Of a DNA stretch of 11,462 nucleotides, positions 1 through 11,462 are shown one piece after another. Position 1 is the stretch's first letter. Each line of letters begins with the position of its first letter. The notes beneath the pieces are model-generated. The model saw only the letters and a program-made list of their open reading frames with translations, searched no databases and was not told where the DNA came from. The position numbers were made by a program, and so were the translations under genes. Source of the stretch: Peptococcaceae bacterium (GTDB taxonomy: Bacteria > Bacillota > Peptococcia > Peptococcales > Peptococcaceae). Where the stretch lies: the NCBI GenBank assembly GCA_017387265.1, contig JAFOFM010000099.1, positions 1-11,462 of the forward strand, given 5' to 3'.

Positions 1-39
1 AAAATCGGTAAAACTGTTGTTTGCGACGAAGAAGCGTAA
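1..39 (+). CDS. C-terminal end of an unidentified gene (partial)
   Basis: Only the last 12 codons and a TAA stop (37-39) are visible, reading KIGKTVVCDEEA in the frame that starts at base 1. The frame is preferred because a clear intrinsic terminator follows 25 bases after the stop. A second frame is also open across the edge (to a TAA near position 57), so the choice is not certain. Too little is present to name a family. Confidence 0.4.
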   Translation, partial: KIGKTVVCDEEA

Positions 40-63
40 TAGAAAGTCGATATAAAAATCAGA

Positions 64-98
64 GGCTGTCTGCGGAAATGCAGGCAGCTTTTCTTTTG
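64..98 (+). terminator. intrinsic terminator of the left-edge gene
   Basis: The arms at 65-73 and 80-88 form a 9-bp GC-rich stem (GCTGTCTGC with GCAGGCAGC, one G-U pair). The loop is six bases and a T-rich tract, TTTTCTTTT, follows directly. It closes transcription from the left-edge gene before the promoter at 106-134. Confidence 0.8.
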
Positions 99-105
99 CA
101 ATGCT

Positions 106-134
106 TTGTAATTGTTGTCCGGGTGTGATATGAT
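106..134 (+). promoter_or_regulatory. sigma-A-type promoter of the small coiled-coil gene
   Basis: A -35-like TTGTAA (106-111) and a -10-like TATGAT (129-134) are separated by 17 bases. They lie just after the preceding terminator and 31 bases before the start codon at 166. The assignment rests on consensus similarity only. Confidence 0.55.
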
Positions 135-165
135 AAGAGTAACTTACGAATATGGAGGGATTCTT

Positions 166-432
166 ATGGCATTTGATGATTTCAAGAAAAAACTGACTGA
201 GGCTGCTGATTTAGCGGTAGACAAGGCGAAAGATTTAGCGGAAACCGGAAAACAGAAGATGGATATTGCAGCGGAAGAAAAAGAGCTGCAGAACTTATAT
301 GCGCAGATCGGGAAATCCGTCTATCATCTGGAAAAGGACAATGCAGAAAGCATTTATGCGGCGGAATGTGCCAATATTGCGGAACGTCTGCAGAGAATTG
401 ATGAACTGAAAAAGAATCCGGAAGCGGAATAA
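166..432 (+). CDS. small charged coiled-coil protein, unknown function
   Basis: An 88-residue soluble protein, rich in Lys, Glu and Ala, with no membrane segment or signal peptide. Residues about 5-60 form one long predicted helix with heptad-like spacing (FKKKLTEAADLAVDKAKDLAE and onward), and a second helix covers about 62-84. Proteins of this look, with a MAFDDFKKKL-like beginning, are common in Clostridia as short hypothetical proteins, sometimes fused to a zinc ribbon; no cysteine pair is present here. The ATG at 166 is chosen because TATGGAGGGA (151-160) provides a Shine-Dalgarno site 6-8 bases upstream. An in-frame extension back to 112 would overlap the promoter. It is a single-gene unit between a terminator and the ffs promoter. 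I do not know its function. Confidence 0.75.
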   Translation: MAFDDFKKKLTEAADLAVDKAKDLAETGKQKMDIAAEEKELQNLYAQIGKSVYHLEKDNAESIYAAECANIAERLQRIDELKKNPEAE

Positions 433-443
433 AACGAAAATCC

Positions 444-473
444 TTGACGGAATATGCTTTGTTATGCTAAAAT
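444..473 (+). promoter_or_regulatory. ffs (SRP RNA) promoter
   Basis: TTGACG (444-449) and TAAAAT (468-473) are separated by 18 bases, and the -10 is preceded by TATGC (extended -10 type). Transcription would begin near 480, exactly where the terminal helix of the SRP RNA begins. The 13-base string TATGCTAAAATAA recurs in the yigZ promoter. Confidence 0.75.
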
Positions 474-479
474 AAACGA

Positions 480-750
480 TAGTCATGCTAGACGGGGAGG
501 TAGCGGTGCCCTGTAACCTGCAATCCGCTATAGCAGGGTTGATGCCTGTTCGAGGGTTGGCTTTGTGAAGTCTGCCTCAGGTAAGTGGTGTTGACGGCTG
601 GGTCCTGCGCAACGCGAACTTATGAACCGTGTCAGGTCCGGAAGGAAGCAGCACTAAGTAAGCACTTGCGTGTGCCGCGGGAGTGCCTGGTTCGAGCTAA
701 CTGCCTGGGTACCGTTCGGAAAGTCCAATTCAGAGACAGGTGCATGACTT
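480..750 (+). ncRNA. ffs: signal recognition particle RNA, large Bacillus-type (scRNA)
   Basis: This is the RNA scaffold of the signal recognition particle, which binds Ffh and directs nascent membrane and secreted proteins to the translocase. The hallmark helix-8 segment with GGTCCGGAAGGAAGCAGCA is at 635-653, including the GGAA tetraloop and the asymmetric loop that binds the Ffh M domain. The 5' segment about 499-540 closely matches the Alu domain of B. subtilis scr RNA as I remember it (GGTAGCGGTGCCCTGTAACC, then CAATCCGCTATAGCAGGG). The ends pair: GTCATGC at 482-488 with GCATGAC at 742-748, followed by T-rich sequence. The length of about 270 nt is that of the large type with an Alu domain, typical of Bacilli and Clostridia. 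The ends are inferred from the promoter and the terminal helix. Confidence 0.95.
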
Positions 751-770
751 TTATTTTTACAGCAAATGAT

Positions 771-816
771 AAAGGCTGTCGCTGGAAGAAATATTCTTCC
801 TGCGGCAGCCTTTTTT
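771..816. terminator. strong terminator between ffs and the convergent minus-strand gene
   Basis: A long hairpin: the arm 771-790 pairs with 794-814 (AAGGCTG, CGC and GGAAGAA blocks with their complements, interrupted by small mismatches) around a three-base loop ATA. On the plus strand T6 (811-816) follows, so it is mainly a terminator for ffs. On the minus strand the weaker tract TTTATCATTT follows, so it may also serve the gene ending at 846. Confidence 0.8.
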
Positions 817-845
817 GTATTTAACCAATATGGTTTTGCGATATA

Positions 846-2555
846 TTATTTCTGGTTTTTCCGGTCGCGATGCTCCTGAAACGAAACAACTTTTCCACTG
901 TGTTTGCCGCTGCTTTTGCCAGATGACTTTGCTGCAGCTTTTGATTCTTTGCGGGAAATCTGTTCCGGCGAATAGCCGCAGAAGTTCCATCTTGGTGTTT
1001 GTACACTGATTTCGTTCAGTGCAGCAGTTAACTTTAATGTAGTGTCATAATCCGGAATGTTCAGATAATGGGTTGATAAAAGCGTTATAACATCCGTAAG
1101 GGTAAGTCCGCTGCGGAGCCAGTATTCGATATTCTGCAGCATCAGCAGAGGATGTGCTTCCGGATTCAGATACGGATGGAAATCGGTAAGAAACTGCTGA
1201 TACAGCTGTTCATTGGCGAGTCGGCGCTGGAAAATCAGAGCCTCCAGCTGATCGAGATCCGGCCAGAAAAAGTCGGTTCTGTTTTCCTGCAGCTGTTTTA
1301 ATCGATGGATGATTTCTTTACAGGAAGGGTCATCTCCGGCAAGAGGGCTGGCCATGACATAACCATCACGGAATACATAATCATAACGTGCCGTCGCAGC
1401 ACGTTCCAGTGTTCTGGTCAGTTCATCCGCCGATATCACCAGATGCATACTTTCGCTGATGATGCGGATAACACGCCGAATCGGGTACAGTCCGTACAGA
1501 TACACTGCCGTATAGCAGAAAGTATGCAGCATATCAAAGTACTGAATGTCCATCATGAGTGTTTCGTCTTTCAGCAGCTTTTTATAAAGGCTGCGCAGCT
1601 CTACCGGTGCGGTCAGATACTGTCCGGTTTCGTCTACAAAAGCGAGACCGCACAGCAGAAGATATCCCCCGTGCAGCGTTACATCCTGCGAGAATAACGG
1701 CATATTAGCCTGTCTCAGAAAGTCCAGAATCTCTACTTCCGGAATCGTAAGAGACTTTAACTGTTCGGCAAGAAAGACTTCGTCGGTTAATGCTGTAAAA
1801 AGCAGATGTTCCATCTGTTCCCGGCTTAAAGCGGCTTCGTCTGAAAGTTTGTGAAACTGAATCAGGCTCTTTAAAGCCATGTCCGGCATATTAGCCAGAC
1901 ATTGTTCCAGTGTGCTGGACTGGGTGATGGCCTCTTCCGGCATACCGGACTGTACCAGATAATCAATCAGTTCCTGCAGTTCCGGATGCCCGTCCAGTTT
2001 TGTCAGTTCCTCCAGAGATTCTACGCCATCCAGTGCCGAGAGCAAATCCGTACTGGTCATGTTTTCGTAATCAAACTCATCGGCTAAAAAATATAATTCT
2101 GCGCGCAGAGCCTGTAAATCGTCCTCGACTTTCTGTTTTAGAAACGGAATACATCCCCGGGAACAGGCGCGATTGTCTCCCTGCCAGTCTTTTAACTGAA
2201 AAGCTGGTTCCGGAAGCAGAGATTTCATCGAATGCAGGGTAATGGAGATGCAATCTGACGGATGTGCACCGCGATAATAAAGAATTTCACTGTTTTTCTG
2301 AAACATAGCAGCCAGTTTAAAATTATCGCAGGGAAGCGAATGGGGTGCATCAGAAAAACTTTCGTTATCACCGACATAGCTGATTTTTGTCTGCCGGGCA
2401 GTAAATTCAAAAGCAGTGGTAAAAGGCCAACCGAAGCAGACACTGATTACCTGGTTGATATCATCCAGAAGAACCGAATCGGGAAGAATCACATCCCGAT
2501 AAACCGGTGGAGTACAATCCGGAATCTGCAGCCGTACATGTAAATGTGTGATCAT
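846..2555 (-). CDS. large protein with degenerate pRiA4b ORF-3-like N-terminal domain
   Basis: A 569-residue protein with no signal peptide or membrane segment. Residues 1 to about 125 resemble the plasmid pRiA4b ORF-3-like family: a beta strand (THLHVRLQIPDCTPPVYRDV), then ILPDSVLLDDINQVI and CFGWPF, and later a cysteine-containing RACSRGC stretch where the family usually has a RACPPEDCGG-like motif. The usual His-rich HLHEF element reads TAFEF, so the domain is divergent. The remaining ~400 residues look all-helical and unfamiliar. Near the end, PRWNFCGYSPEQISRKE resembles a short motif seen at the C-termini of SEC-C/pRiA4b-type proteins. The last ~35 residues are a basic Ser/Lys/Gly tail (repeats of SSGK and HSGK) that could bind nucleic acid. 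The start lies 12 bases after the nitroreductase stop, so the two are probably cotranscribed; the ribosome-binding site is weak. Function unknown. Confidence 0.75.
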   Translation of the reverse strand: MITHLHVRLQIPDCTPPVYRDVILPDSVLLDDINQVISVCFGWPFTTAFEFTARQTKISYVGDNESFSDAPHSLPCDNFKLAAMFQKNSEILYYRGAHPSDCISITLHSMKSLLPEPAFQLKDWQGDNRACSRGCIPFLKQKVEDDLQALRAELYFLADEFDYENMTSTDLLSALDGVESLEELTKLDGHPELQELIDYLVQSGMPEEAITQSSTLEQCLANMPDMALKSLIQFHKLSDEAALSREQMEHLLFTALTDEVFLAEQLKSLTIPEVEILDFLRQANMPLFSQDVTLHGGYLLLCGLAFVDETGQYLTAPVELRSLYKKLLKDETLMMDIQYFDMLHTFCYTAVYLYGLYPIRRVIRIISESMHLVISADELTRTLERAATARYDYVFRDGYVMASPLAGDDPSCKEIIHRLKQLQENRTDFFWPDLDQLEALIFQRRLANEQLYQQFLTDFHPYLNPEAHPLLMLQNIEYWLRSGLTLTDVITLLSTHYLNIPDYDTTLKLTAALNEISVQTPRWNFCGYSPEQISRKESKAAAKSSGKSSGKHSGKVVSFQEHRDRKNQK

Positions 2556-2567
2556 AAGCGAAATCTC

Positions 2568-3113
2568 TTACGCCTCGTAGCTGTTAAAGCTATGAATGGC
2601 ATTCAGTTCTTTACGCACTTTTGTACGAGCTGTGCCGGACGGATAACCGACAGCCAGCATAATAAAAATACGGCGATCTTCTGGCACATGGAGCAGTTCT
2701 TTCATTTTTGCTTCATCGAAAGCGCCCATAATGCAGGTACTTAAGCCCAGTTCCGCAGCCTGCAGGCAGAAATGTTCGGTTGCACTGCCCAGGTCAAACT
2801 GTGCCCAGCGATTAGAGTCGACTTTGCCCTGAATTTTTGGCATTAATACAGCCTGTTCTTCGATAACTGCTACCAGAACCGGTGCGGTTTCGGCAAATTT
2901 ATTGATGCCCAGCGGATTGTTGGAAACTGCAACGCCGGCCTGTTTCACCAGTTCTGCATCGTCGATTACGATGAATTTCCATGGCTGGGAGTTGCATGCC
3001 GATGGAGCCAGCTGCGCGGCCTGGATGCATTTTAATAAATCTTCGCGGCGGACTTCCTGTGCAGTAAATGCACGGTCGCTCTGGCGGGTTGTAGCTAAAT
3101 CCATAAATGTCAT
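2568..3113 (-). CDS. nitroreductase family protein (FMN-dependent)
   Basis: A 181-residue cytoplasmic flavoprotein of the nitroreductase superfamily, which usually binds FMN as a homodimer and reduces nitroaromatics, quinones or other oxidants with NAD(P)H. The N-terminal RQSDRAF (R10, S12, R14) is the family's FMN-phosphate-binding motif. SACNSQPW (38-45) is the second conserved flavin-binding segment. A C-terminal region about 107-131 (DLGSATEHFCLQAAELGLST) matches the conserved helix at the dimer interface, and the GYPSG element follows near 156-160. Length is typical of the short single-domain members. AAAGGAGAG lies 8-10 bases before the ATG. It sits downstream of the SCIFF gene and its terminator on the same strand and just upstream of the 846-2555 gene. 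I see no convincing promoter of its own, so read-through from the SCIFF promoter is possible. The substrate cannot be told. Confidence 0.9.
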   Translation of the reverse strand: MTFMDLATTRQSDRAFTAQEVRREDLLKCIQAAQLAPSACNSQPWKFIVIDDAELVKQAGVAVSNNPLGINKFAETAPVLVAVIEEQAVLMPKIQGKVDSNRWAQFDLGSATEHFCLQAAELGLSTCIMGAFDEAKMKELLHVPEDRRIFIMLAVGYPSGTARTKVRKELNAIHSFNSYEA

Positions 3114-3144
3114 GGTAAATCTCTCCTTTGAATTTGAATTTAGA

Positions 3145-3180
3145 TAAAAAGAAAAACAGCCACCGCTTTGCGATGGCTGT
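3145..3180 (-). terminator. intrinsic terminator of the SCIFF peptide gene
   Basis: On the minus strand, ACAGCCATCGC (3180-3170) pairs with GCGGTGGCTGT (3166-3156) around an AAA loop with one G-U pair, followed by TTTTCTTTTT. It starts six bases after the SCIFF stop codon. It should make the peptide message largely monocistronic, with partial read-through into the nitroreductase. Confidence 0.85.
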
Positions 3181-3186
3181 CATGGA

Positions 3187-3327
3187 TTAGTTATTTTTGC
3201 AAACCTGGTTACCAACTGTGCAGGATGTTTTGCAAGCAGACTGGCAGGATGTCTGGCATTCACCGCAGCCACCTTTTTTTACAGTACCCTGTAAGTTCTG
3301 TGCGCTGATTGTTTTGATATGAGCCAT
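3187..3327 (-). CDS. scfA: SCIFF six-cysteine ranthipeptide precursor
   Basis: A 46-residue peptide read on the minus strand from ATG (3327-3325) to TAA (3189-3187). The first half is MAHIKTISAQNLQGTVKKGG. The second half has six cysteines (C21, C24, C28, C32, C36, C43) among Gln, Ser and Thr, ending GNQVCKNN. This is the signature of SCIFF (six cysteines in forty-five residues), a ribosomally made peptide conserved across Clostridia. A radical SAM SPASM enzyme links its Cys sulfurs to carbon atoms of acceptor residues (thioether, ranthipeptide class). A Shine-Dalgarno GGAGGGG lies 6 bases before the ATG. It has its own consensus-like promoter and its own terminator. The maturase gene, normally next door, is not adjacent here. 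Its biological role in the family is unsettled; signalling roles have been proposed. Confidence 0.95.
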   Translation of the reverse strand: MAHIKTISAQNLQGTVKKGGCGECQTSCQSACKTSCTVGNQVCKNN

Positions 3328-3371
3328 GATTTTCCCCTCCTTCATGATGTTGCCTCAATAAACGATAATTC

Positions 3372-3400
3372 ATTATAGCATGGGATAGAATCATTCACAA
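3372..3400 (-). promoter_or_regulatory. strong sigma-A promoter of the SCIFF gene
   Basis: On the minus strand, TTGTGA (3400-3395), a 17-base spacer and a perfect TATAAT (3377-3372) preceded by ATGC (extended -10). The start site would be near 3365, giving a leader of about 40 bases before the ATG at 3327. It is the best-matching promoter in the window. Confidence 0.8.
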
Positions 3401-3436
3401 CATTTTTTTCCTGCATGAGCCGTGGGAAATTTTAAA

Positions 3437-3452
3437 TGTTTCACGTGAAACA
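3437..3452. other. parS: parS centromere site (ParB/Spo0J binding)
   Basis: TGTTTCACGTGAAACA is a perfect 16-bp palindrome identical to the consensus parS of B. subtilis. ParB (Spo0J) loads here, slides and spreads, and recruits SMC for origin segregation. It lies between the divergent SCIFF and nfo promoters, outside all coding sequence. In Bacillota most such sites cluster in the origin-proximal part of the chromosome. A second copy was not seen in the window. Confidence 0.9.
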
Positions 3453-3473
3453 TCCCGAAATGCCGGGAGGTTA

Positions 3474-3503
3474 CTGACAAATGACATGAATTCATGGTAA
3501 AAT
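3474..3503 (+). promoter_or_regulatory. probable promoter of the nfo operon
   Basis: CTGACA (3474-3479), an 18-base spacer and TAAAAT (3498-3503), 31 bases before the nfo start codon. The architecture (18-base spacer, TAAAAT) matches the ffs and yigZ promoters. The parS site ends 21 bases upstream of the -35. Confidence 0.65.
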
Positions 3504-3533
3504 TACATATTACGATGGAATGGAGGAAGCTTC

Positions 3534-4373
3534 ATGTTACATATTGGATGTCATTTATCAGCCTCGAAAGGCTATCTGGCTATGGGAAAAGATGCCCTGA
3601 AAATCGGTGCGGATACGTTTCAGTTTTTTACCCGCAATCCGCGGGGCGGAAAAGCAAAAGATATCGATGAAGCGGATGTGGCTGCCTTTTTAAAGCTGGC
3701 CGGAGATAATCACTTTACGCATATTCTGGCACATGCGCCATACACCATGAATGCCTGTTCAAAAGATGCCGGGATTCGCGGATTCAGCAGGGAAATGATG
3801 GCGGATGATCTGCGGCGTATGGAATATCTGCCAGGCAATTTTTATAATTTTCATCCGGGAAGTCATGTAGGCCAGGGGATGGACACAGGCATTTCCCTGA
3901 TTACGGAACAGCTCAATGCGGTGATGAAGCCGGAGCAGCGTACAACCATTCTGCTGGAAACCATGGCGGGCAAAGGCAGCGAAGTAGGCGGCCGTTTTGA
4001 AGAACTGCGGCGTATTATAGATGGCGTGCATCTGCACGAAAAAATGGGGGTATGTCTGGATACCTGCCATGTCTATGATGCCGGATATGATATTGTGCAT
4101 AATCTGGATGGAGTTCTGGATGAATTTGACCATATAATCGGGCTGGAATGGCTTAAAGCAATTCATTTAAACGACAGCCTGAATCCAATGGCAAGCCATA
4201 AAGACCGTCATGCAAAAATCGGTGAGGGCTCACTTGGATTAGACGCAATCTGCCGGATTATTAATCATCCAAAACTGCAGCATCTGTTTTTTATTCTAGA
4301 GACTCCGCAGGAGGATTTAGCCGGTTATGGTGCAGAAATAGCACTTCTGCGCAGCTGTCATCAGGAGGGATAA
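3534..4373 (+). CDS. nfo: deoxyribonuclease IV (AP endonuclease, EndoIV family)
   Basis: Endonuclease IV cleaves the DNA backbone 5' to abasic sites in base-excision repair and can trim blocked 3' ends. The protein is 279 residues, a normal length for a single TIM barrel. All nine expected ligands of the trinuclear zinc site are visible: H67 (HAPY), H107 (NFHPGSH), E142 (LETMAG), D176 and H179 ([12 protein letters not shown]), H211 (HLNDS), D224 and H226 (DRHAKIGEG) and E256 (ETP). The N-terminal [11 protein letters not shown] is also typical. The ATG at 3534 follows GGAGGAAG (3522-3529) at good spacing. It is the first gene of a six-gene operon; the next start lies three bases after its stop, with that gene's Shine-Dalgarno site inside its last codons, suggesting translational coupling. 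Confidence 0.97.
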
Positions 4374-4376
4374 CCC

Positions 4377-5087
4377 GTGAATATTGGAAAGGCAATTCGT
4401 CTGGAACTAGAGGGGATGGCGGAGGATACATACCGCGCATTTTCTGCTGGTCTGATTCCGGGGGAAGAACATATACTGGGTGTTCGGCTTCCGAGACTGC
4501 GTGAAATTGCAAAACGAATCGTAAAAACAGATAGCTGGCAGGAATATCTGGCTTGTGAGCCGTATTATTTTGAGGAGATTATGCTGCAGGGGATGATTAT
4601 CGGGGCAGCAAAACTTCCTGCTGAAGAACGGCTGGAATATGTGAGAGATTTTATCCCTGCTATTCGCAACTGGTCAGTGTGTGACAGTTTTGTGAGCGGA
4701 CTGAAATTTGCCAGAAACAATCTGGAAGTAGTATGGCAGTTTATACAGCCGTATATAAAGAGTGGGGATGTATTTTCTGTCCGGTTTGCAGTTGTTATGA
4801 TGATGAATTATTATCTGACGGATTCGTACATCGACCTTGTGCTGGAACAGTTAGACGGCATAAAACACGAAGCTTACTATGTGAAAATGGCTGTAGCGTG
4901 GGCGCTGGCAACGGCACTGGCAAAACAGCCGGAAAAAACATGGGCTTATTTGCAGAATCATCATCTGGATGAAGATACCTGGAGAAAGACTGTGCAGAAA
5001 TGCATGGAGTCGTATCGGATTTCAGAGGAATATAAAACGATTTTGCGCCAGATGCGACGCGATCTGGCAAAACAGAAGCATGTGTAA
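4377..5087 (+). CDS. DNA alkylation repair protein, AlkD-like glycosylase
   Basis: A 236-residue all-helical HEAT-like protein of the AlkD family, which removes N3- and N7-alkylated purines from DNA by N-glycosidic cleavage. The segment LGVRLPRLREIAKR (34-47) is characteristic. W99 and D103 in NWSVCDSF, R136 in SVRFAVV and W175 in MAVAWALA fall at nearly the spacing of W109, D113, R148 and W187 of Bacillus cereus AlkD, as I recall those. This suggests an active enzyme rather than a scaffold. The start is GTG at 4377, with AGGAGGG (4363-4369) seven bases upstream inside the end of nfo. The pairing with nfo is logical: the glycosylase creates the abasic site that endonuclease IV incises. The divergence from AlkD proper is considerable, so substrate range is not certain. 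Confidence 0.9.
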   Translation: MNIGKAIRLELEGMAEDTYRAFSAGLIPGEEHILGVRLPRLREIAKRIVKTDSWQEYLACEPYYFEEIMLQGMIIGAAKLPAEERLEYVRDFIPAIRNWSVCDSFVSGLKFARNNLEVVWQFIQPYIKSGDVFSVRFAVVMMMNYYLTDSYIDLVLEQLDGIKHEAYYVKMAVAWALATALAKQPEKTWAYLQNHHLDEDTWRKTVQKCMESYRISEEYKTILRQMRRDLAKQKHV

Positions 5088-5104
5088 ATAAAGGAGTGGA
5101 TGCT

Positions 5105-5815
5105 GTGCTGGATATCATACTGGCTGCTGTTTTATTTGTAATGGCCATTCTGGGATTTCGCAAAGGTTTTTTGAAAAGTTTAATCGGACTGTTTGGCAAT
5201 CTGATAGCATTAGCACTCAGTTATGTGCTGGCAGCGCCGGTGACAGTGCGGCTGAATGAACAGTTTGGCACCGCAGAAAAATTTGCCGGCACCATTCGGG
5301 AACTGCTGCCGATGCCGGATCATTTTTCGATGGTGATGGCAAGTTTTGAAGGCATGGGACAGCTTTATACCTATCTGGATCAGTCATTTCTGCCTGAGTC
5401 TATGAAACAGAGTATTTTAGCTGCTGTACAGGAGCAGGTAAATGCGGTAGGTGCAGGGGTATATGCGACAATGGCTGATACCATTGCCATTACGGTAGCC
5501 ACATCCATTCTGCAGGGGCTGGTGTTTATCGGCCTGTGGGCACTGTTTTGTGTACTGCTGTTTTTAGCAGGGCATATTTTAGGCGGTGTGGTGCATCTGG
5601 TGCCGGTAGTAGGTCTGATGGACCGGCTTGGCGGCATGGTTATATCGCTTGCATTTACAGTAATTACGATACTGATTTTATATAAAGGCATCAGTGTGCT
5701 TGGTCTGATGGAGGGGTCACTGTTTGCTGAATCGCAGATTTTTCATTTCTGCAGTGAGTTATTAAATCCGGATGTCACAGCTCCGGAACTGACAGGGGGA
5801 GTAAGCAATGCCTGA
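5105..5815 (+). CDS. cvpA: CvpA family membrane protein
   Basis: A 236-residue integral membrane protein with about four hydrophobic segments: roughly 2-17, 22-42, 125-155 and 165-195. The first block IILAAVLFVMAILGFRKGFLKS is the typical CvpA (colicin V production protein) beginning, with the positively charged FRKGF turn between the first two helices. A soluble amphipathic stretch separates helices 2 and 3. The family's role in Bacillota is poorly defined; it is linked to envelope stress and small-molecule traffic. I choose GTG at 5105 because AAAGGAG (5090-5096) sits 8 bases upstream. An in-frame GTG at 5096 overlaps the Shine-Dalgarno site, and the ATG at 5100 is out of frame. Its stop overlaps the next gene by 8 bases, indicating translational coupling. 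Confidence 0.85.
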   Translation: MLDIILAAVLFVMAILGFRKGFLKSLIGLFGNLIALALSYVLAAPVTVRLNEQFGTAEKFAGTIRELLPMPDHFSMVMASFEGMGQLYTYLDQSFLPESMKQSILAAVQEQVNAVGAGVYATMADTIAITVATSILQGLVFIGLWALFCVLLFLAGHILGGVVHLVPVVGLMDRLGGMVISLAFTVITILILYKGISVLGLMEGSLFAESQIFHFCSELLNPDVTAPELTGGVSNA

Positions 5816-6782
5816 TTATCGGGATTATGCACCGTGGCTGGAAGCGCGTTACGGGCAGAGAGTCTATAAAGTGCCGCTAAATATTCCGGGGGGGACCTGC
5901 CCGAACCGGGACGGCACCGTTGGAAAAGGCGGATGTATTTTCTGTGAATCATCCGGTTCCGGATTTCAGTGTCTGCCGGATACCATGACTATTCGGGAAC
6001 AGTGGGCAGAAAATAAAGCCTTTTATGAACGTCGATTCCGTGCCCATAAATTTATCAGTTATTTACAGACCTATACCAATACTTATATGTCGCTGGAGCG
6101 CTTTAAAGAGGTGGTTTTAGCGGCTACGGAGGATGAGGATTTAGTCGGAGTGGCCATTTCTACACGACCGGATTGTGTCTGCGATGAATATCTGGAATTT
6201 CTGGCGGAATTAAAAGAAAGCAGGAATCTGGACGTTGATATTGAATTAGGATTACAGACGGTGAATTACCATAATCTGGTTGAAATAAACAGGGGACATA
6301 CACTGGCTGAATATATCGATGCAGTGCTGCGAATCAAACGCTACGGGTTAAGTACTACCGCGCATGTTATTTTAAATCTGCCGGGTGACACTATGCTGGA
6401 TGTCATTGAAACAGCAAAAATTGTATCAACGCTGGGTGTGGATTTTGTCAAACTGCATTCGCTTTATGTGGCAGGCGGTACTGAACTGGCTCGCCGTTAT
6501 GAGGCTGGAGAGTTTACGATGATTACGCTTTCGGAATATGTGGAGCGTGTGGTAACCTTTTTAGAGTATTTAGACCCTGAGATTGTCATTCAGAGGCTGG
6601 TAGGGAAAGGTCCTCAGGATAATCTGCTGTTCTGTAACTGGGACACAAGCTGGTGGAAAATTAAAGACGCCATTGATGCAGAGTTTATAGCACGAAATTC
6701 AAAACAGGGAAGTAAGTTTGATTATCTGAATGGAAAAGCAATCAGATTAAAACAGAGCCGAACCGGAACAGAAAACCGGTAA
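5808..6782 (+). CDS. radical SAM protein, YhcC/YtqA type (TIGR01212 family)
   Basis: A 324-residue enzyme of the radical SAM superfamily. The cluster-binding cysteines are C31, C43 and C46 (TCPNRDG, then GGCIFC). This C-X11-C-X2-C arrangement, with YKVPLNIPGGTCPNRDG before it, marks the YhcC/YtqA group rather than the usual CX3CX2C enzymes. Further family signs are the GVAISTRPDC segment, IELGLQT (near 146-152) and the C-terminal QRLVGKGPQDNLLFCNWD. B. subtilis YtqA is encoded next to a methyltransferase, and a tRNA-modification role has been suggested for the group; no methyltransferase is adjacent here. ATG 5808 follows GGGGGAG and overlaps the end of cvpA. It is not a SCIFF maturase: it lacks the SPASM-type C-terminal cysteines. 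Confidence 0.92.
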   Translation: MPDYRDYAPWLEARYGQRVYKVPLNIPGGTCPNRDGTVGKGGCIFCESSGSGFQCLPDTMTIREQWAENKAFYERRFRAHKFISYLQTYTNTYMSLERFKEVVLAATEDEDLVGVAISTRPDCVCDEYLEFLAELKESRNLDVDIELGLQTVNYHNLVEINRGHTLAEYIDAVLRIKRYGLSTTAHVILNLPGDTMLDVIETAKIVSTLGVDFVKLHSLYVAGGTELARRYEAGEFTMITLSEYVERVVTFLEYLDPEIVIQRLVGKGPQDNLLFCNWDTSWWKIKDAIDAEFIARNSKQGSKFDYLNGKAIRLKQSRTGTENR

Positions 6783-6806
6783 TCGCGGAAGATACAATCT
6801 GACATG

Positions 6807-6836
6807 CCACCGTTAGTTTTTCTACGAGGTGGTTTT
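6807..6836 (+). promoter_or_regulatory. possible hairpin covering the ribosome-binding site of the HEAT-repeat gene
   Basis: CCACC (6807-6811) is complementary to GGTGG (6828-6832), which forms part of the Shine-Dalgarno GAGGTGG of the next gene. TAG and CTA can pair inside around a T5 loop, and four T residues follow. It may damp translation or act as a weak attenuator inside the operon. Confidence 0.3.
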
Positions 6837-7772
6837 ATGGTTCCATTTAGAAGTAAAAAATATCAGCGGCAGCAGAAGCTGCACAGCCAGACCGATATCG
6901 GGCAGGTAGCCAGGCAATGGATTCTGCGTCGCGATCAGCTGCCGGAATACCGGTTTGCGCTGGAACTGATGAGTCAGGCTGACCGGGAAGAAATCTTCTG
7001 GCAGTACTGGGATGAGCTGGACAGCTTTGCCCAGCGGGATCTGGCCCGCGTGACGTTTCAGGAATATTGGTTTAAGCTGATTGCGGATTACAGCGATTTG
7101 AATCAGAGAGAAAAAGCGCAGGCACTGGAGGCCCTTGGATATATTCATAATGCCAATGTAGTCGATTTTCTGGTGCAGGAGATGCGCCGCGATAACGAAA
7201 GTCTGCGGCTGGCTGCAGCGGGGGCGCTGAAAAAACAGGACCCGGTTCTGGTAATCGAACCGATGCTGTGTGCACTTGCTGCGCCGGAACAGTATCTGGC
7301 TTCCCGCATTCATGATGTATTACAGGCACTGGGGCCGAAACTGGTGCCAATCATTCTGAAAAAAATTGACAAAGCCGATGTGAACGGTAAAATGGTAATG
7401 GTGCAGCTGCTTGGTTCTTTCGGGGACAGCAGTGTGGTTCCGGTATTAACCGAACTGTTAAATACCAGCCATTATCTGCTGAAAAAGATGACCGTAGAAG
7501 CACTCGGACAGATTCAGGGCGCTGAAGTATATCCGGTGCTGATACAGCTTTTGAAAGACGAAAACTGGCAGATTCGGCTGCTGGCGGCGGAAGCCATTGG
7601 CAGAAGCCGGTTTTATCAGGCTTGCCCGGCATTGCGGGAAGCTTTTTATCAGGAGTCGGATCATCTGGTAAAAGAGATTATGGAAGAGATTTTAAATGCA
7701 CTGGATAACAGCAGCGAGACCGTCACGTATTTATGGAACCGGCGGAATCGCACAGCTTGTGCATCGGAGTAA
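6837..7772 (+). CDS. HEAT-repeat protein, unknown function
   Basis: A 311-residue soluble protein. Residues 1-85 are basic and helical without clear homology. From about 90 to 290 it carries helical pairs of HEAT/PBS-lyase type: units such as ALEALGYIHNANVVDFLVQ, LRLAAAGALKKQ, KMTVEALGQIQGAEVYPVLIQLL and IRLLAAEAIGRSRF show the repeated A/G-A-L-G and Asp-x-x-V/Q-R-like spacing. Such solenoids usually act as protein-binding scaffolds. The ATG at 6837 is chosen because GAGGTGG precedes it by four bases; an upstream in-frame ATG at 6804 has no ribosome-binding site. It lies 54 bases after the radical SAM gene and 22 bases before the DUF951 start, on the same strand. There is no transmembrane segment. 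Its partner is unknown. Confidence 0.8.
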   Translation: MVPFRSKKYQRQQKLHSQTDIGQVARQWILRRDQLPEYRFALELMSQADREEIFWQYWDELDSFAQRDLARVTFQEYWFKLIADYSDLNQREKAQALEALGYIHNANVVDFLVQEMRRDNESLRLAAAGALKKQDPVLVIEPMLCALAAPEQYLASRIHDVLQALGPKLVPIILKKIDKADVNGKMVMVQLLGSFGDSSVVPVLTELLNTSHYLLKKMTVEALGQIQGAEVYPVLIQLLKDENWQIRLLAAEAIGRSRFYQACPALREAFYQESDHLVKEIMEEILNALDNSSETVTYLWNRRNRTACASE

Positions 7773-7794
7773 TTGTATAAAGTCAGGAAGGGGG

Positions 7795-8016
7795 ATGGTT
7801 ATAGTGCCGATGAAATTATATGTGGGTGATATCATCCAGACCCGGAAAGGGCATCCGTGTGGCGGTGACCAGTGGGAAATTATGCGTGTAGGTATGGATT
7901 TTCGTATTCGCTGCACGACTTGTGATCATCAGGTATGGATTCCCCGTGTAAAACTGGAGAAATCCATTAAAAAAGTTCTGGTGAGCCATGCGCCAGAACC
8001 AGAAACAAACGAATAA
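7795..8016 (+). CDS. DUF951 family protein (YyzM-like)
   Basis: A 73-residue small protein. The core LYVGDIIQTRKGHPCGG, WEIMRVGMDFRIRC, CDHQVWIPRVKLEKSIKKVL is the full DUF951 signature. H20, C22, C40 and C43 (HPC and CTTC) suggest a possible metal-binding knuckle. B. subtilis YyzM, the family member I recall, is encoded close to parA/parB near oriC. The role is unknown; a nucleic-acid-binding function is a guess based on small size and basic charge. Start choice is uncertain: AGGAAGGGGG (7785-7794) precedes ATG 7795 very closely, while GTG 7804 or ATG 7810 would give better spacing or the usual N-terminus. The acidic tail (APEPETNE) is outside the family core. It is the last gene of the nfo operon, before the terminator at 8051. 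Confidence 0.85.
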   Translation: MVIVPMKLYVGDIIQTRKGHPCGGDQWEIMRVGMDFRIRCTTCDHQVWIPRVKLEKSIKKVLVSHAPEPETNE

Positions 8017-8050
8017 TATGTCCGGCATGTAAAATCAGATCGGAATCGAA

Positions 8051-8095
8051 AACCGGCAGTGGCTGAAGTTCAGTCGCTGCCGGTTTTTTGTTTTT
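8051..8095 (+). terminator. strong terminator closing the nfo-DUF951 operon
   Basis: AACCGGCAG (8051-8059) pairs with CTGCCGGTT (8077-8085). The stem continues inward through wobble and GC pairs (CTGA with TCAG) to a tiny loop near 8067-8069, and T6GT5 follows. A nearly continuous 16-bp stem makes this a confident call. Confidence 0.92.
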
Positions 8096-8191
8096 AGCAG
8101 ATACTGATTATTTTTTCTAGACCATGTACATACTATAAAACAGAAAAATGGTCAGCCGATTATATTCGGTCTGATTGCGGGAGGTGCTGGA

Positions 8192-8386
8192 ATGGATTTG
8201 ATGATGGAGCTGGAGGATGCCAGATGGCAGTGGAAGAATATGCAGAATATCTACAACGAAGTAAGTGATCCGGCGTTAATTGACAGTGTGATTTATCAGG
8301 TGATGGCAGCAGAGCAGCGATATGAATATCTGTTGCGACTGGCTAAACGCGAATCTCTGACATGCGAAAATATTCCGGTCCGCTGA
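8192..8386 (+). CDS. yaaL: YaaL-like protein (DUF2508 family)
   Basis: A 64-residue helical protein. LEDARWQWKNMQNIYNEV, DPALIDSVIYQVMAAE and RYEYLLRLAK carry the DUF2508 pattern (E-x-A-x-x-x-W, then D-P-x-L-I-D-x-x-I-Y, then A-E-x-R-Y-x-Y-L-L-R). In B. subtilis yaaL lies between recR and bofA near the origin; here it also precedes a bofA homologue, but recR is not directly upstream. GGGAGGTG (8179-8186) fixes the ATG at 8192. A TATAAA at about 8134-8139 could be a -10 element, though I see no good -35, and a small hairpin follows near 8152-8175. Function unknown. Confidence 0.85.
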   Translation: MDLMMELEDARWQWKNMQNIYNEVSDPALIDSVIYQVMAAEQRYEYLLRLAKRESLTCENIPVR

Positions 8387-8445
8387 CATAAACAAGCCCC
8401 GCATTGCATAGGATAAAGTAAAATTCATTGCCGGGGGGACGTGTT

Positions 8446-8718
8446 ATGCCGCAAATTCAGATGGAGACAGTATTATTTGTATGTTTCGCTATCGCAGTTA
8501 TTTTTCTGATTGCACGACTTGCAGTTTCACCAGCGCAGGTGATGCTGAAACTCTTATTGAATTCCGTCCTGGCTGTGGTACTTTTATGTGTTGTCGGCAT
8601 TCTGGGAGAAACCTGGGGGATTCGTTTGCCAATCAACCCGATGACGATTCTGCTGATTGCCATTCTGGGGCTTCCGGGTCTTCTACTGGTATCGGTGCTG
8701 TATATGCTGATGATATGA
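8446..8718 (+). CDS. bofA: BofA family membrane protein (pro-sigma-K processing inhibitor-like)
   Basis: A 90-residue membrane protein with hydrophobic segments at about 7-26, 33-54 and 66-89. LLKLLLNSVLAVVLL-like sequence (N39) and LPINPMTILLIAILGLPGLL (61-80, N64) are the conserved BofA blocks. In B. subtilis, BofA sits in the outer forespore membrane and, with SpoIVFA, holds the intramembrane protease SpoIVFB inactive until sigma-K activation. Whether this organism sporulates cannot be told from the window, and the family also occurs in species without spores. ATG 8446 is chosen from the G6A run (8433-8439) six bases upstream; CCCCG at 8397-8401 could pair with part of it. It is 59 bases after yaaL, repeating the B. 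subtilis yaaL-bofA order. Confidence 0.85.
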   Translation: MPQIQMETVLFVCFAIAVIFLIARLAVSPAQVMLKLLLNSVLAVVLLCVVGILGETWGIRLPINPMTILLIAILGLPGLLLVSVLYMLMI

Positions 8719-8730
8719 AATATAAAAACA

Positions 8731-8900
8731 AAAAACAGAGAACTCCCCTGTTACCAGGTTTCGCCTTCCGCATCAGAATGGAGATTTTGCAGATTGTACA
8801 ACGCGTGGCAAACAAAGTTTGACAAAGCGGTACAATCGAAAAAATGTCCAGGCAATATGCGGGAAAGGAACAGCGTGTAACAGGGGAGTTCTCTGTTTTT
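8731..8900 (-). ncRNA. ssrS: rod-shaped structured RNA, 6S RNA candidate
   Basis: The arms 8731-8754 and 8877-8900 are perfect 24-base inverse complements, enclosing 122 bases. Inside, further paired blocks occur in register: 8764-8773 with 8857-8868 (one two-base bulge), 8779-8788 with 8841-8850 (one G-G mismatch), 8792-8799 with 8830-8837, 8802-8804 with 8827-8829, and 8809-8813 with 8817-8821. A closing stem, an interrupted middle and an apical stem over about 170 nt is the architecture of 6S RNA, which binds the sigma-A RNA polymerase. The arm contains CTCCCCTG, like the CCCCUG region of E. coli 6S RNA. Strand is inferred as minus: perfect TATAAT at 8906-8901, T6GT5 after the distal arm, and a small hairpin on the 3' side of the middle loop. 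The plus strand is not excluded. Confidence 0.6.
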
Positions 8901-8919
8901 ATTATATATTCAGACTTCC

Positions 8920-8969
8920 AGAAAATAAAAGGGGCTGCCGCACTAAGAGGATTGAGAGTGCGACAGCCC
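8920..8969 (-). terminator. terminator of the thioredoxin-like gene
   Basis: On the minus strand GGGCTGTCGCACT (8969-8957) pairs with AGTGCGGCAGCCC (8944-8932), one G-U pair, with a 12-base loop, followed by TTTTATTTT. It lies about 34 bases after the stop of the 9003-9380 gene. Confidence 0.85.
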
Positions 8970-9002
8970 GGAGGAAAATGAGAGTTTCTAAATTAAAGTG
9001 CA

Positions 9003-9380
9003 TTATTTACCGAAAATGCCTTTGATTTTGCTAAGCAGGCCTTTTTTCGGATTCAGCATTTCGTTGATTTCTTTTTTGAAAATAGATTCACTGATTGCGC
9101 CTGGCAGAGACTGCTGCATTTCGCCGTTCAGGAAGAATACAGACTGCGGAACGCCCATCAGATTTAAGGATTTGAAAGTAGCTAAACCATCTGGTGTTTT
9201 TACATCCATTGTATAGAAGTTTACCTGACCTTCAAACTGAGAAGCCATTTTTTCTGCGATTGGTGCCAGCTGTTTACATACGGAACAGGTTTCTTTGGAG
9301 AACACAACAATACAGGTTTCTTTGTTTTCTTTTGTAATCTGATCGAACTGTTCGCCAGTAATCTGAGGCAAATTCATCAT
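9003..9380 (-). CDS. thioredoxin-like protein with basic amphipathic C-terminal tail
   Basis: A 125-residue thioredoxin-fold protein. The redox motif CSVC is at 32-35, after IVVFSKETC, and the cis-proline loop GVPQ lies near residues 76-79. DVKTPDGLATFKSLN corresponds to the usual D-x-x-x-x-x-L-A segment. It probably reduces disulfides in the cytoplasm. The canonical WCGPC has become ETCSVCK, without Trp or Pro, so redox potential and partners may differ from TrxA. The last residues (KKGLLSKIKGIFGK) form a short basic amphipathic helix beyond the thioredoxin fold that could touch the membrane. GGAGTG precedes the start; ATG 9380 and ATG 9377 are both possible. No thioredoxin reductase gene is adjacent. 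Confidence 0.88.
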   Translation of the reverse strand: MMNLPQITGEQFDQITKENKETCIVVFSKETCSVCKQLAPIAEKMASQFEGQVNFYTMDVKTPDGLATFKSLNLMGVPQSVFFLNGEMQQSLPGAISESIFKKEINEMLNPKKGLLSKIKGIFGK

Positions 9381-9416
9381 ACGTCTTCACTCCAATAACT
9401 TTATTATGATAGTTAT

Positions 9417-9445
9417 ATTGTACTTGATATCGACGTGATTTACAA
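9417..9445 (-). promoter_or_regulatory. promoter of the thioredoxin-like gene
   Basis: On the minus strand TTGTAA (9445-9440), a 17-base spacer and TACAAT (9422-9417), 36 bases before the start codon. The -35 touches the edge of the AT-rich stretch next to the DnaA-box cluster. Confidence 0.55.
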
Positions 9446-9606
9446 ATATCTTTTTTCGATTTTGAAAAATTTTTCGAATAAATTCGAGGATTGCGGATAA
9501 CAGAGTTATAATCCACGATGTTATACACAGTACAAACCGCCAGTTCATGGGTTATGCACAGACTTATCCACATTATCCACAGATAAATAGTGGATATTCA
9601 TCCACA
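9441..9606. other. DnaA-box cluster with adjacent AT-rich stretch (candidate oriC or DnaA-binding locus)
   Basis: Four exact matches to TTATNCACA, all in the same orientation: TTATACACA 9521-9529, TTATGCACA 9552-9560, and TTATCCACA at 9564-9572 and 9573-9581, directly abutting. Weaker boxes surround them: 9598-9606 (TCATCCACA, one mismatch), 9492-9500 (minus strand TTATCCGCA, one mismatch), 9509-9517 and 9589-9597 (two mismatches each). The 45 bases at 9441-9485 contain only 8 G or C, as expected of a DNA unwinding element. No open frame crosses it convincingly. Known origins combine such boxes with an AT-rich element, but in Bacillota usually next to dnaA, which is not visible here. It may instead control the flanking trx-like and yigZ genes or titrate DnaA. 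Confidence 0.75.
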
Positions 9607-9641
9607 AGGAAATAAGCGCTATTCAGCTGGAAAAGAAACCG

Positions 9642-9671
9642 TTGAGCGAAGCCGGTGCGGTATGCTAAAAT
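9642..9671 (+). promoter_or_regulatory. promoter of yigZ
   Basis: TTGAGC (9642-9647), an 18-base spacer and TAAAAT (9666-9671) with TATGC before the -10. It shares TATGCTAAAATAA with the ffs promoter. The nearest DnaA box ends 35 bases upstream of the -35. Confidence 0.65.
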
Positions 9672-9707
9672 AACAGCAAAGAAAATCTTATGTGTATGGA
9701 GGAGCCT

Positions 9708-10337
9708 ATGCTGAAAACATATCGTACGGTAGAACAGTTCGGGCAGGATGAAATCATTATTGAAAAGTCCACTTTTATCGGCTATGCAAAACCAGTAACC
9801 AGTGAAGAAGAAGCACTGGCTTTTATACAGGAAATCAAAAAGAAACATCGGGATGCCACCCACAACGTTCCGGCTTATGTGCTGGGGGAACATAATGATA
9901 TTCAGCGCTGCAATGATGATGGGGAACCGTCCGGCACAGCCGGGGTTCCGGTTCTGGAAGTATTAAAAAAAGAAGATGTGCGTGATGTTGCGGTAGTGGT
10001 AACCCGGTATTTCGGCGGTATCAAGCTGGGTACCGGCGGGCTGGTGCGTGCCTATACCAAAGGCGCAAAAATTGCGCTGGAGGCTGCCAGAATCATCACA
10101 AAGGTGTTATATCAGGTTGTGATTGTATCGGTGGATTATACCATGCTGGGCACACTGCAGAATCAGCTGCGCTTAAAACAGTATGATACGAAAGATATTG
10201 TGTATGATGAAATGGTGCATCTGCATGTGTGGGTAGAGCTGGAGGATGTAGCAGATTTTAAAGCGTTAATCGTTGAGTGGACCAATGCGCGTGCACTTAT
10301 TGAAGATGGCGAAATCAGCTATAAAGTCATTGACTGA
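9708..10337 (+). CDS. yigZ: YigZ/IMPACT family protein
   Basis: A 209-residue protein of the YigZ (UPF0029/IMPACT) family. The N-terminal domain (about 15-120) has IEKSTFIGYA, the KKHRDATHNVPAYVLG segment and the signature DDGEPSGTAGVPVL followed by VVVTRYFGGIKLGTGGLVRAY. The C-terminal domain (about 135-205) is the DUF1949 ferredoxin-like fold. The eukaryotic relative IMPACT acts in translational control through GCN2; bacterial members are thought to bind RNA or ribosomes, but their role is not established. I choose ATG 9708, preceded by ATGGAGGAG; an in-frame ATG at 9690 would place the Shine-Dalgarno site inside the gene. It has its own promoter and converges on lysA. Confidence 0.93.
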   Translation: MLKTYRTVEQFGQDEIIIEKSTFIGYAKPVTSEEEALAFIQEIKKKHRDATHNVPAYVLGEHNDIQRCNDDGEPSGTAGVPVLEVLKKEDVRDVAVVVTRYFGGIKLGTGGLVRAYTKGAKIALEAARIITKVLYQVVIVSVDYTMLGTLQNQLRLKQYDTKDIVYDEMVHLHVWVELEDVADFKALIVEWTNARALIEDGEISYKVID

Positions 10338-10364
10338 TATTAAATTAATAATAAACGGAAACGA

Positions 10365-10407
10365 AAAGGGTATCCCTTCTAAATGAAGGAATACCCTTTG
10401 TTTTTTT
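10365..10407. terminator. bidirectional terminator between yigZ and lysA
   Basis: AAAGGGTAT (10365-10373) pairs with ATACCCTTT (10391-10399), and CCTTC with GAAGG continues the stem after one mismatch, around a five-base loop TAAAT. T7 follows on the plus strand. On the minus strand a T-rich tract complementary to the A-rich 10344-10367 follows. It serves both convergent genes. Confidence 0.88.
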
Positions 10408-10430
10408 ATGTCATCCAGTATTCGTGCTTT

Positions 10431-11462
10431 TTACAGATTGCTGAAATCCAATGTGGCGAATAAATCGTCCAGCGTTTCAGCGCGGCGGATGCATTGTACA
10501 GAGCCGTCTGGTTTTAATAACAGTTCTGCGGAACGCAGTTTGCCGTTGTAGTTAAAGCCCATGGCATGGCCGTGTGCCCCGGCGTCGTGAATTACCAGAA
10601 TATCTCCGTTTTCGATTTCCGGCAGTTCGCGATTTACAGCAAATTTGTCGCAGTTTTCGCAGAGGCTGCCTACTACGTCGTATACTTTATCGGCAGGTGC
10701 GTTTTCTTTGCCCATAACGGTGCAGTGATGATATGCGCCGTACATGCCAGGACGCATCAGATTTGCCATGGAGGCATCTACACCGATGTAATGTTTATAA
10801 GTATCTTTTTTATGGATGGCTTTTGTCACCAGATAACCAAATGGCCCGGTTACCATACGCCCGCATTCCAGACAGATTTTCAGAGGATCCAGACCGTTTG
10901 CCACGATGATGGCATCGTACTGAGCTTTGATTTCTTCGCCCAGCGCTTCTAAATTAACTGGTTCCTGCTCTTCACGGTAAGGAATCCCGATGCCGCCGCC
11001 AAAGTTTACAAAATCAAAGCGGATTCCCAGTTCTTTGTTTAAGTCCACAATTAAATCAAACATCATTTTTGCGGTTTCTACTAAGTATTCGCGGTTCAGT
11101 TCGTTGGATACAATCATGGTGTGAATCCCGAATTTTTTCGCACCTTTTTCTTTCATGATGCGATATGCTTCAAAAAGCTGATCACGGGTCAGGCCATATT
11201 TTGCTTCTTCCGGTGTACCGATGATTTCGTTGCCGCCGCGCAGAGGGCCTGGGTTATAGCGGAAACTGATGGTTTCCGGCAGTCCGATCTGGCTGTCGAT
11301 AAATTCGATGTGGGTGATATCGTCCAGATTAAAGATGGCGCCCAGCTCTTTGGCTTTTACATATTCCTCGATTGGTGTTTCATTGGATGTAAACATGATA
11401 TTTTCACCGGTGATGCCGGCTTTTTCACACAGAATTAATTCAGCCAGCGAGCTGCAGTCTCC
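10431..11462 (-). CDS. lysA: diaminopimelate decarboxylase, N-terminus beyond the window
   Basis: A PLP enzyme that decarboxylates meso-diaminopimelate to L-lysine in the last step of lysine synthesis. The frame stays open from the stop at 10433-10431 to the window edge, giving 343 visible residues; an internal ATG at 11396 is not the start, since coding sequence such as GDCSSLAELIL continues upstream. Visible family motifs are FNFGGGIGIPY-like sequence, LECGRMVTGPFGYLV, GVDASMANLMRPGMYGAYHH, SLCENCDKFA with the conserved active-site cysteine at the dimer interface, and DAGAHGHAMGFNYNGKLRSAELLL. The DAGAHGHAMGF variant, instead of GAY-type loops, is common in Clostridia and relatives. The PLP-binding lysine and about 80 residues are presumably to the right. 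The other group-IV decarboxylases (arginine, carboxynorspermidine) fit less well. Confidence 0.93.
   Translation of the reverse strand, partial: GDCSSLAELILCEKAGITGENIMFTSNETPIEEYVKAKELGAIFNLDDITHIEFIDSQIGLPETISFRYNPGPLRGGNEIIGTPEEAKYGLTRDQLFEAYRIMKEKGAKKFGIHTMIVSNELNREYLVETAKMMFDLIVDLNKELGIRFDFVNFGGGIGIPYREEQEPVNLEALGEEIKAQYDAIIVANGLDPLKICLECGRMVTGPFGYLVTKAIHKKDTYKHYIGVDASMANLMRPGMYGAYHHCTVMGKENAPADKVYDVVGSLCENCDKFAVNRELPEIENGDILVIHDAGAHGHAMGFNYNGKLRSAELLLKPDGSVQCIRRAETLDDLFATLDFSNL

Follow-up and report, generated by a model that had tools for sequence, protein, structure and literature searches.

Why should a dense array of DnaA boxes lie between a thioredoxin-like gene (trx) and yigZ, away from dnaA? 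The question is raised by a stretch of 11,462 nucleotides from Peptococcaceae bacterium (assembly GCA_017387265.1, contig JAFOFM010000099.1, positions 1 to 11,462, forward strand; this whole stretch is the window referred to below). The reading that we favour, with a probability of roughly 0.7, takes the interval for a DnaA-box cluster outside oriC, of the kind known from Bacillus, which has a box triplet of fixed geometry as its core and acts as a site that titrates or otherwise conditions DnaA. Its starting point is a set of boxes whose presence, clustering, spacing and conservation are observed directly:

9552..9581, + strand: core DnaA-box triplet A-B-C, 30 bp of exact matches with an A-B gap of 3 bp and a B-C gap of 0 bp
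9552-9560, + strand: box A, TTATGCACA, exact match
9564-9572, + strand: box B, TTATCCACA, exact match, 3 bp past A
9573-9581, + strand: box C, TTATCCACA, exact match, abutting B
9521..9529, + strand: box Z, TTATACACA, exact match, 22 bp ahead of A
9598..9606, + strand: box D, TCATCCACA, 1 mismatch, 16 bp past C
9509..9517, + strand: weak box Y, TAATCCACG, 2 mismatches
9589..9597, - strand: weak opposite-strand box, ATATCCACT, 2 mismatches
9492..9500, - strand: weak box, TTATCCGCA, 1 mismatch, within a poorly conserved stretch
9436..9485, no strand: AT-rich stretch, 7-8 G/C per 45 bp, overlapping the -35 element of the promoter-like site of the thioredoxin-like gene

The sequence-only reading had described four exact TTATNCACA boxes in one orientation within 61 bases, two of them abutting, with weaker boxes around them and a 45-base stretch of 8 G/C at one side, and this description holds. 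The four lie on the + strand at 9521-9581 and the last two abut, while a scan of 9431-9700 returns two boxes with one mismatch (9492-9500, - strand, and 9598-9606, + strand) and six with two (starting at 9436, 9461 (-), 9473 (-), 9509 (+), 9589 (-) and 9691 (-)). The G/C minimum is in fact 7, at 9438-9482 (45-mers starting at 9301-9700 scanned), and in the whole window 45-mers with at most 8 G/C start at 9436-9441 only. The genome to which the window belongs is, like most of the others used, a draft (1.27 Mb in 251 contigs, 79.9% complete, stated contamination 0.74%). It holds 72 exact boxes against 24 matches to the reversed pattern, so that four same-strand boxes within 61 bp are not to be expected; at the genome's own + strand rate, the Poisson chance that a given box has at least three more on its strand within 61 bp is about 1e-9. 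Nine of the 13 genomes sampled from the family have same-strand triple clusters, and the reversed control finds them in none of the 13. Rfam models at their gathering threshold gave no match at the array.

Conservation of the boxes in relatives, on whose absence the sequence-only reading had agreed to fall, is found throughout the family sample wherever the gene pair occurs. The sample comprises the window's own genome and G006-G011, all of one genus, G004, G001 and G003 from three other genera, and three further genomes. While yigZ is present in 12 of the 13, ten genomes in four genera (the own genome, G001, G003, G004 and G006-G011) have trx and yigZ as a divergent pair, both genes being matched in each, and all ten carry the array between them. 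No exact box is found at yigZ in G002 and G012, where an adjacent thioredoxin-like gene is lacking, and among 73 other named yigZ loci (one of which, L040, is also labelled Peptococcaceae) the 500 bp upstream hold one exact box at two loci and more than one at none. A yigZ-linked function across Bacillota finds no support in these counts.

Within the ten orthologues, mean column identity is highest in boxes A, B and C (0.94-0.97), followed by D (0.89) and Z (0.87); it is 0.80 in the A-B gap, 0.66 between Z and A and 0.55 between C and D, and just outside the array it is 0.36-0.47 (0.47 at 9486-9508). Intermediate values are found for the AT-rich stretch (0.74), weak box Y (0.69) and the yigZ promoter-like site (0.61). 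Nine of the ten orthologues have an A-B gap of 3 bp and G003 has one of 4 bp; degenerate single boxes occur at B in G001, G003 and G004 and at the first base of C in G006, G009 and G010. Position Z reads TACACA in all save G001 and G003; D lies 14-16 bp past C throughout and is degenerate at locus L011; the opposite-strand box at 9589..9597 has a clear counterpart at L010 only. The ATTGTACT stretch of the trx promoter-like site, present in eight of the ten, lies 125-198 bp from box A, and box C lies 61-325 bp from yigZ in the ten. Since these distances to the trx promoter and to yigZ drift, the array itself appears as the unit that is kept.

The same 3/0 spacing recurs well beyond the family. 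In a class sample of 46 genomes, a search that allowed 2-4 bp for the first gap and any first base in C finds the A-gap-B-C arrangement in 15 genomes, once in each and always with a gap of 3, and its reversed control in none; when both gaps are freed, 12 of 19 matches have the 3/0 spacing and the other seven scatter (reversed control, 0/46). A phylum sample of 398 genomes, one per species and drawn evenly, was searched allowing any first gap between 0 and 25 bp: matches occur in 19 genomes, 17 with a gap of exactly 3 and the others with gaps of 5 and 13, against 0/398 for the reversed control, and those 17 fall in 12 families (kinship ignored). Between them, the class and phylum searches yield 27 distinct genomes with the 3/0 triplet, belonging to 13 families; five of the genomes were found by both. 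In a literature search limited to openly licensed PMC papers, none of the titles and abstracts listed describes this triplet, and the string TTATCCACATTATCCACA has no match.

What lies next to the triplet differs from lineage to lineage, as scored within about 1.5 kb in the 27 genomes. The neighbour is yigZ in seven and tsaD in nine, the latter being the most frequent outside the window's own family, with the triplet positioned, in several genomes, at that gene's 3' end (eight of the calls rest on Pfam, at L157, L182-L186, L189 and L190, and that at L155 on sequence reading only). Two more triplets lie near the ETF/PHP pair of the tsaD-type neighbourhood (L154 by Pfam, L156 by reading), and three near a ComF-type gene (L153, L181 and L187), these being tblastn matches that at L181 and L187 fall below the cut-offs of the NCBIfam ComF models and have no Pfam match. 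One each adjoins hpf (L192) and a solute-binding-protein gene (L193), and four lie beside other genes (L151, L152, L158 and L188). DnaA or DnaN matches were found near none of the triplets at L151-L158 and L180-L193. In G166, a single contig of 3.2 Mb, some 846 kb separate the triplet from dnaA, as against about 11 kb on the same contig in G181, so the distance from triplet to oriC is not uniform. That neighbours vary by lineage and the array stays is to be expected if the neighbours are not its target.

Clusters of this general kind are known from Bacillus subtilis, where they are described as sequestering DnaA and inhibiting initiation (PMC11019786; here and below, papers are cited from the available parts of their text), and where the joint deletion of six DnaA-box clusters leads to early initiation (PMC5295017, PMC13220808). 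The array resembles them in consisting of dense, intergenic consensus boxes away from dnaA, and in being conserved in relatives (10/10 genomes with the trx-yigZ pair). One of them, the gcp(tsaD)/ydiF cluster, ranks among the strongest DnaA sites in vitro, with apparent dissociation constants of 0.15 uM for ATP-DnaA and 0.33 uM for ADP-DnaA (PMC4447404). As far as a comparison by description goes, the triplet recalls this cluster in adjoining tsaD in other Bacillota, and phylum match L180 combines tsaD (by Pfam) with an ABC-F-type gene (by reading only) and two abutting box pairs. However, the array of the window has trx and yigZ for neighbours, and the first gap at L180 is 13 bp, unlike the 3/0 triplet common to 13 families. 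Another parallel is datA of Escherichia coli, which likewise has several boxes outside oriC and lowers the level of active DnaA (PMC5295017, PMC10380432), and which needs IHF at a set spacing from its boxes (PMC10380432). The sequence-only reading had offered a titration or a reactivation site as one option; clustering, conservation and the likeness to the B. subtilis clusters favour its titration half, and the other half is taken up below.

How such a site might work is suggested by E. coli oriC, where boxes on the same strand permit head-to-tail DnaA oligomers (PMC10380432). We infer that the triplet TTATNCACA-N3-TTATCCACA-TTATCCACA would be a high-affinity site for a short DnaA oligomer of head-to-tail form, A-B-C seeding the oligomer and Z and D extending it so that DnaA is held. 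The array would thereby keep DnaA away from oriC and might also change its nucleotide state, and each copy of the site made in replication would lower free DnaA and delay re-initiation, by analogy with the model put forward for the six clusters of B. subtilis. DnaA binding, the form of the oligomer, titration and the effect on timing are all putative properties of the array.

A relocated or second replication origin (an oriC element), which the sequence-only reading had entertained, is the least probable of the explanations considered and is very nearly dismissed. Like the rpmH-dnaA-dnaN origins of Bacillota, the array has DnaA boxes, in one orientation, beside AT-rich DNA with 7-8 G/C per 45 bp; that stretch, however, overlaps the trx promoter-like site. 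Origins in Bacillota usually adjoin dnaA and dnaN, and the array, as had been said of it, lies away from both: dnaA was located twice in the bin, on contigs C38 (locus L005) and C122 (L006), neither being the contig of the array. Each dnaA is flanked by dnaN and, on its opposite side, by rnpA, yidC-type and rpmH genes; exact boxes lie upstream of it in both cases and, on C122, between dnaA and dnaN as well (DnaA of C38 and DnaN of C122 are named by NCBIfam, and rpmH, rnpA, yidD and yidC by sequence reading). Abutting exact boxes, as in the array, are absent from the 11 dnaA loci of the family, one of which (L125) is cut by a contig end. The GC skew changes sign at dnaA on three of four contigs (G007:C31, G001:C33 and G010:C50). 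On the fourth, G003:C4, dnaA is at 57 kb and the change follows only about 15 kb further on (about 72-76 kb), a displacement which may reflect a shifted origin or a local inversion and which counts in favour of an origin elsewhere than at dnaA. Across the array, by contrast, the sign is kept on four of five contigs, namely G003:C7 (with about 37 kb on one side and 39 kb on the other), G007:C33, G010:C17 and G008:C28 (only about 1.3 kb beyond); on G001:C152 a negative stretch gives way to positive values beyond the array, in the contig's final 4.5 kb, as an origin would have it, over a length too short to judge. In the window no sign change occurs at the array, all 1-kb bins being positive except 2001-3000 (-0.004), with values of 0.170, 0.072 and 0.073 at 8-9, 9-10 and 10-11 kb. 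Given the dnaA-dnaN loci with boxes in the bin and the skew of the contigs, the array does not look like oriC where this can be tested; a box cluster and AT-rich DNA alone do not make an origin.

The remaining alternatives accept a site outside oriC and differ in what it would do there. Reactivation, the other half of the earlier option, would make it a DnaA-reactivating sequence (DARS) that reloads DnaA with ATP. DARS1 and DARS2 of E. coli share with the array a three-box core, and its 3-bp tandem spacing is also that of the tandem pair in the DARS2 stretch (L218: 565-, 577-), on a presumed assignment of boxes I-III; moreover, the family has, on the comF side, a cluster that keeps a head-to-head pair at 17 bp. 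DARS are, however, defined by head-to-head boxes I and II together with box III, and that orientation is essential in E. coli (PMC10380432), whereas no head-to-head pair is conserved at trx|yigZ in the ten orthologues and the sole opposite box next to the core has two mismatches and is not kept in most of them. DARS identity was rejected for the array on this ground, and a reactivating role is very unlikely. Control of the two divergent promoters, by which bound DnaA would activate or repress yigZ, trx or both in step with the replication state, is a more serious candidate that we nonetheless judge improbable. The features on which it turns are these:

9003..9380, - strand: thioredoxin-like gene (trx), Pfam PF00085 with E 5.9e-15, under the NCBIfam thioredoxin cut-offs
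9708..10337, + strand: yigZ (IMPACT/UPF0029 family), PF01205 with E 2.9e-41, TIGR00257 above its cut-off
9417..9445, - strand: promoter-like site of the thioredoxin-like gene, TTGTAA-17-TACAAT, from a consensus scan of the window
9642..9671, + strand: promoter-like site of yigZ, TTGAGC-18-TAAAAT with TG, from the same scan

The array lies between the two promoter-like sites, that of yigZ being visible by eye at L009, L010 and L012 as well, and the divergent pair flanks it in ten genomes of four genera; the DnaA of B. subtilis is an activator of sda and an apparent repressor of ywlC, vpr and other genes (PMC4447404). Yet the distances on both the trx and the yigZ side vary over the ranges given above, and in other families the triplet adjoins unrelated genes, several times at the 3' end of tsaD. 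The favoured reading, a titrating or conditioning cluster, has in turn several points to answer. A place between two divergent genes would suit transcriptional control equally; kinship among genomes is ignored in the spacing counts; and the exact 3/0 triplet is missing from 381 of the 398 phylum genomes and from G001, G003 and G004 of the window's own family, in which single boxes are degenerate. Boxes with at most one mismatch are, besides, unexceptional over the window (18, against a shuffle mean of 11.7, with 12 of 200 shuffles reaching 18), and it is by clustering and conservation, not by window-wide box count, that the array stands out.

The two dnaA loci bear also on the draft genome itself. 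Their DnaA proteins are 67% identical to each other; that of C38 is 88% identical to the DnaA of G007 and G008, whose YigZ proteins are 96% and 95% identical to that of the window, and that of C122 is 90% identical to the DnaA of G009 (410 residues). A duplicated initiator was rejected, given that nine relatives have a single dnaA match each (at the threshold used, three others lack one) and that the copies match different relatives. As the copies are closest to different relatives, the bin most likely mixes two species of the same genus, despite its stated contamination of 0.74%, and the window's lineage likely has its oriC at the C38 locus.

The family has three further kinds of DnaA-box cluster in addition to oriC and the trx|yigZ array. 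That on the comF side consists of an abutting box pair facing a single opposite box 17 bp away, and is exact at L205, L206, L207 and L210, degenerate at L208, L209 and L211 and not seen at the other four of the 11 loci. A second lies beside an aldehyde dehydrogenase gene (L106, L108, L117 and L119, with Pfam support on L106 only). The third, a block spanning some 150 bp, contains between four and six exact boxes together with several near matches and is flanked by CTGTTCG motifs (L107, L109, L115 and L118); its sequence is kept in four genomes with mostly differing flanking genes, two of which share a GH18-like gene by reading. No skew switch was seen at the aldehyde-dehydrogenase cluster or the block on G008:C24, G007:C36 (little sequence on one side) and G007:C9. 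A tsaD cluster remaining in the family was sought and rejected, a single box being found at 2 of 11 tsaD loci and none at nine (some cut by contig ends). The own bin (L007) and a distant member of the phylum (L181) share an arrangement in which DnaA boxes lie between a comF-type gene and a solute-binding-protein gene.

A broader proposal, possible if doubtful, would make the 30-bp triplet TTATNCACA-N3-TTATCCACATTATCCACA a DnaA control module of Bacillota and a functional counterpart of datA and DARS, present once per genome where found, its spacing dictated by DnaA-trimer geometry and its address shifting by lineage among tsaD, comF, yigZ and other genes. The window's family would then have the triplet at yigZ and a head-to-head variant at comF, so that an oligomer-holding site and a DARS-like one might coexist in one genome. 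B. subtilis is described as being without Hda, SeqA, IHF, datA and DARS, and the existence there of regulators that balance DnaA-ADP and DnaA-ATP as unsettled (PMC13220808). A module of fixed spacing that can be found by pattern across a phylum offers a small and concrete DNA target, and poses the questions of whether the 3/0 spacing sets affinity or nucleotide preference and whether chromosomal place sets the timing of initiation. Extra-oriC clusters of the B. subtilis type are already known; a description of the fixed-geometry triplet was found in no paper searched.

Two other features of the window may be recorded. Positions 8725-8910 form a long imperfect palindrome, 73% identical to its reverse complement across some 180 bp, of which no further copy was found in the own draft genome, and positions 483-747 carry a gene for the large bacterial signal recognition particle (SRP) RNA (RF01854, 212 bits).
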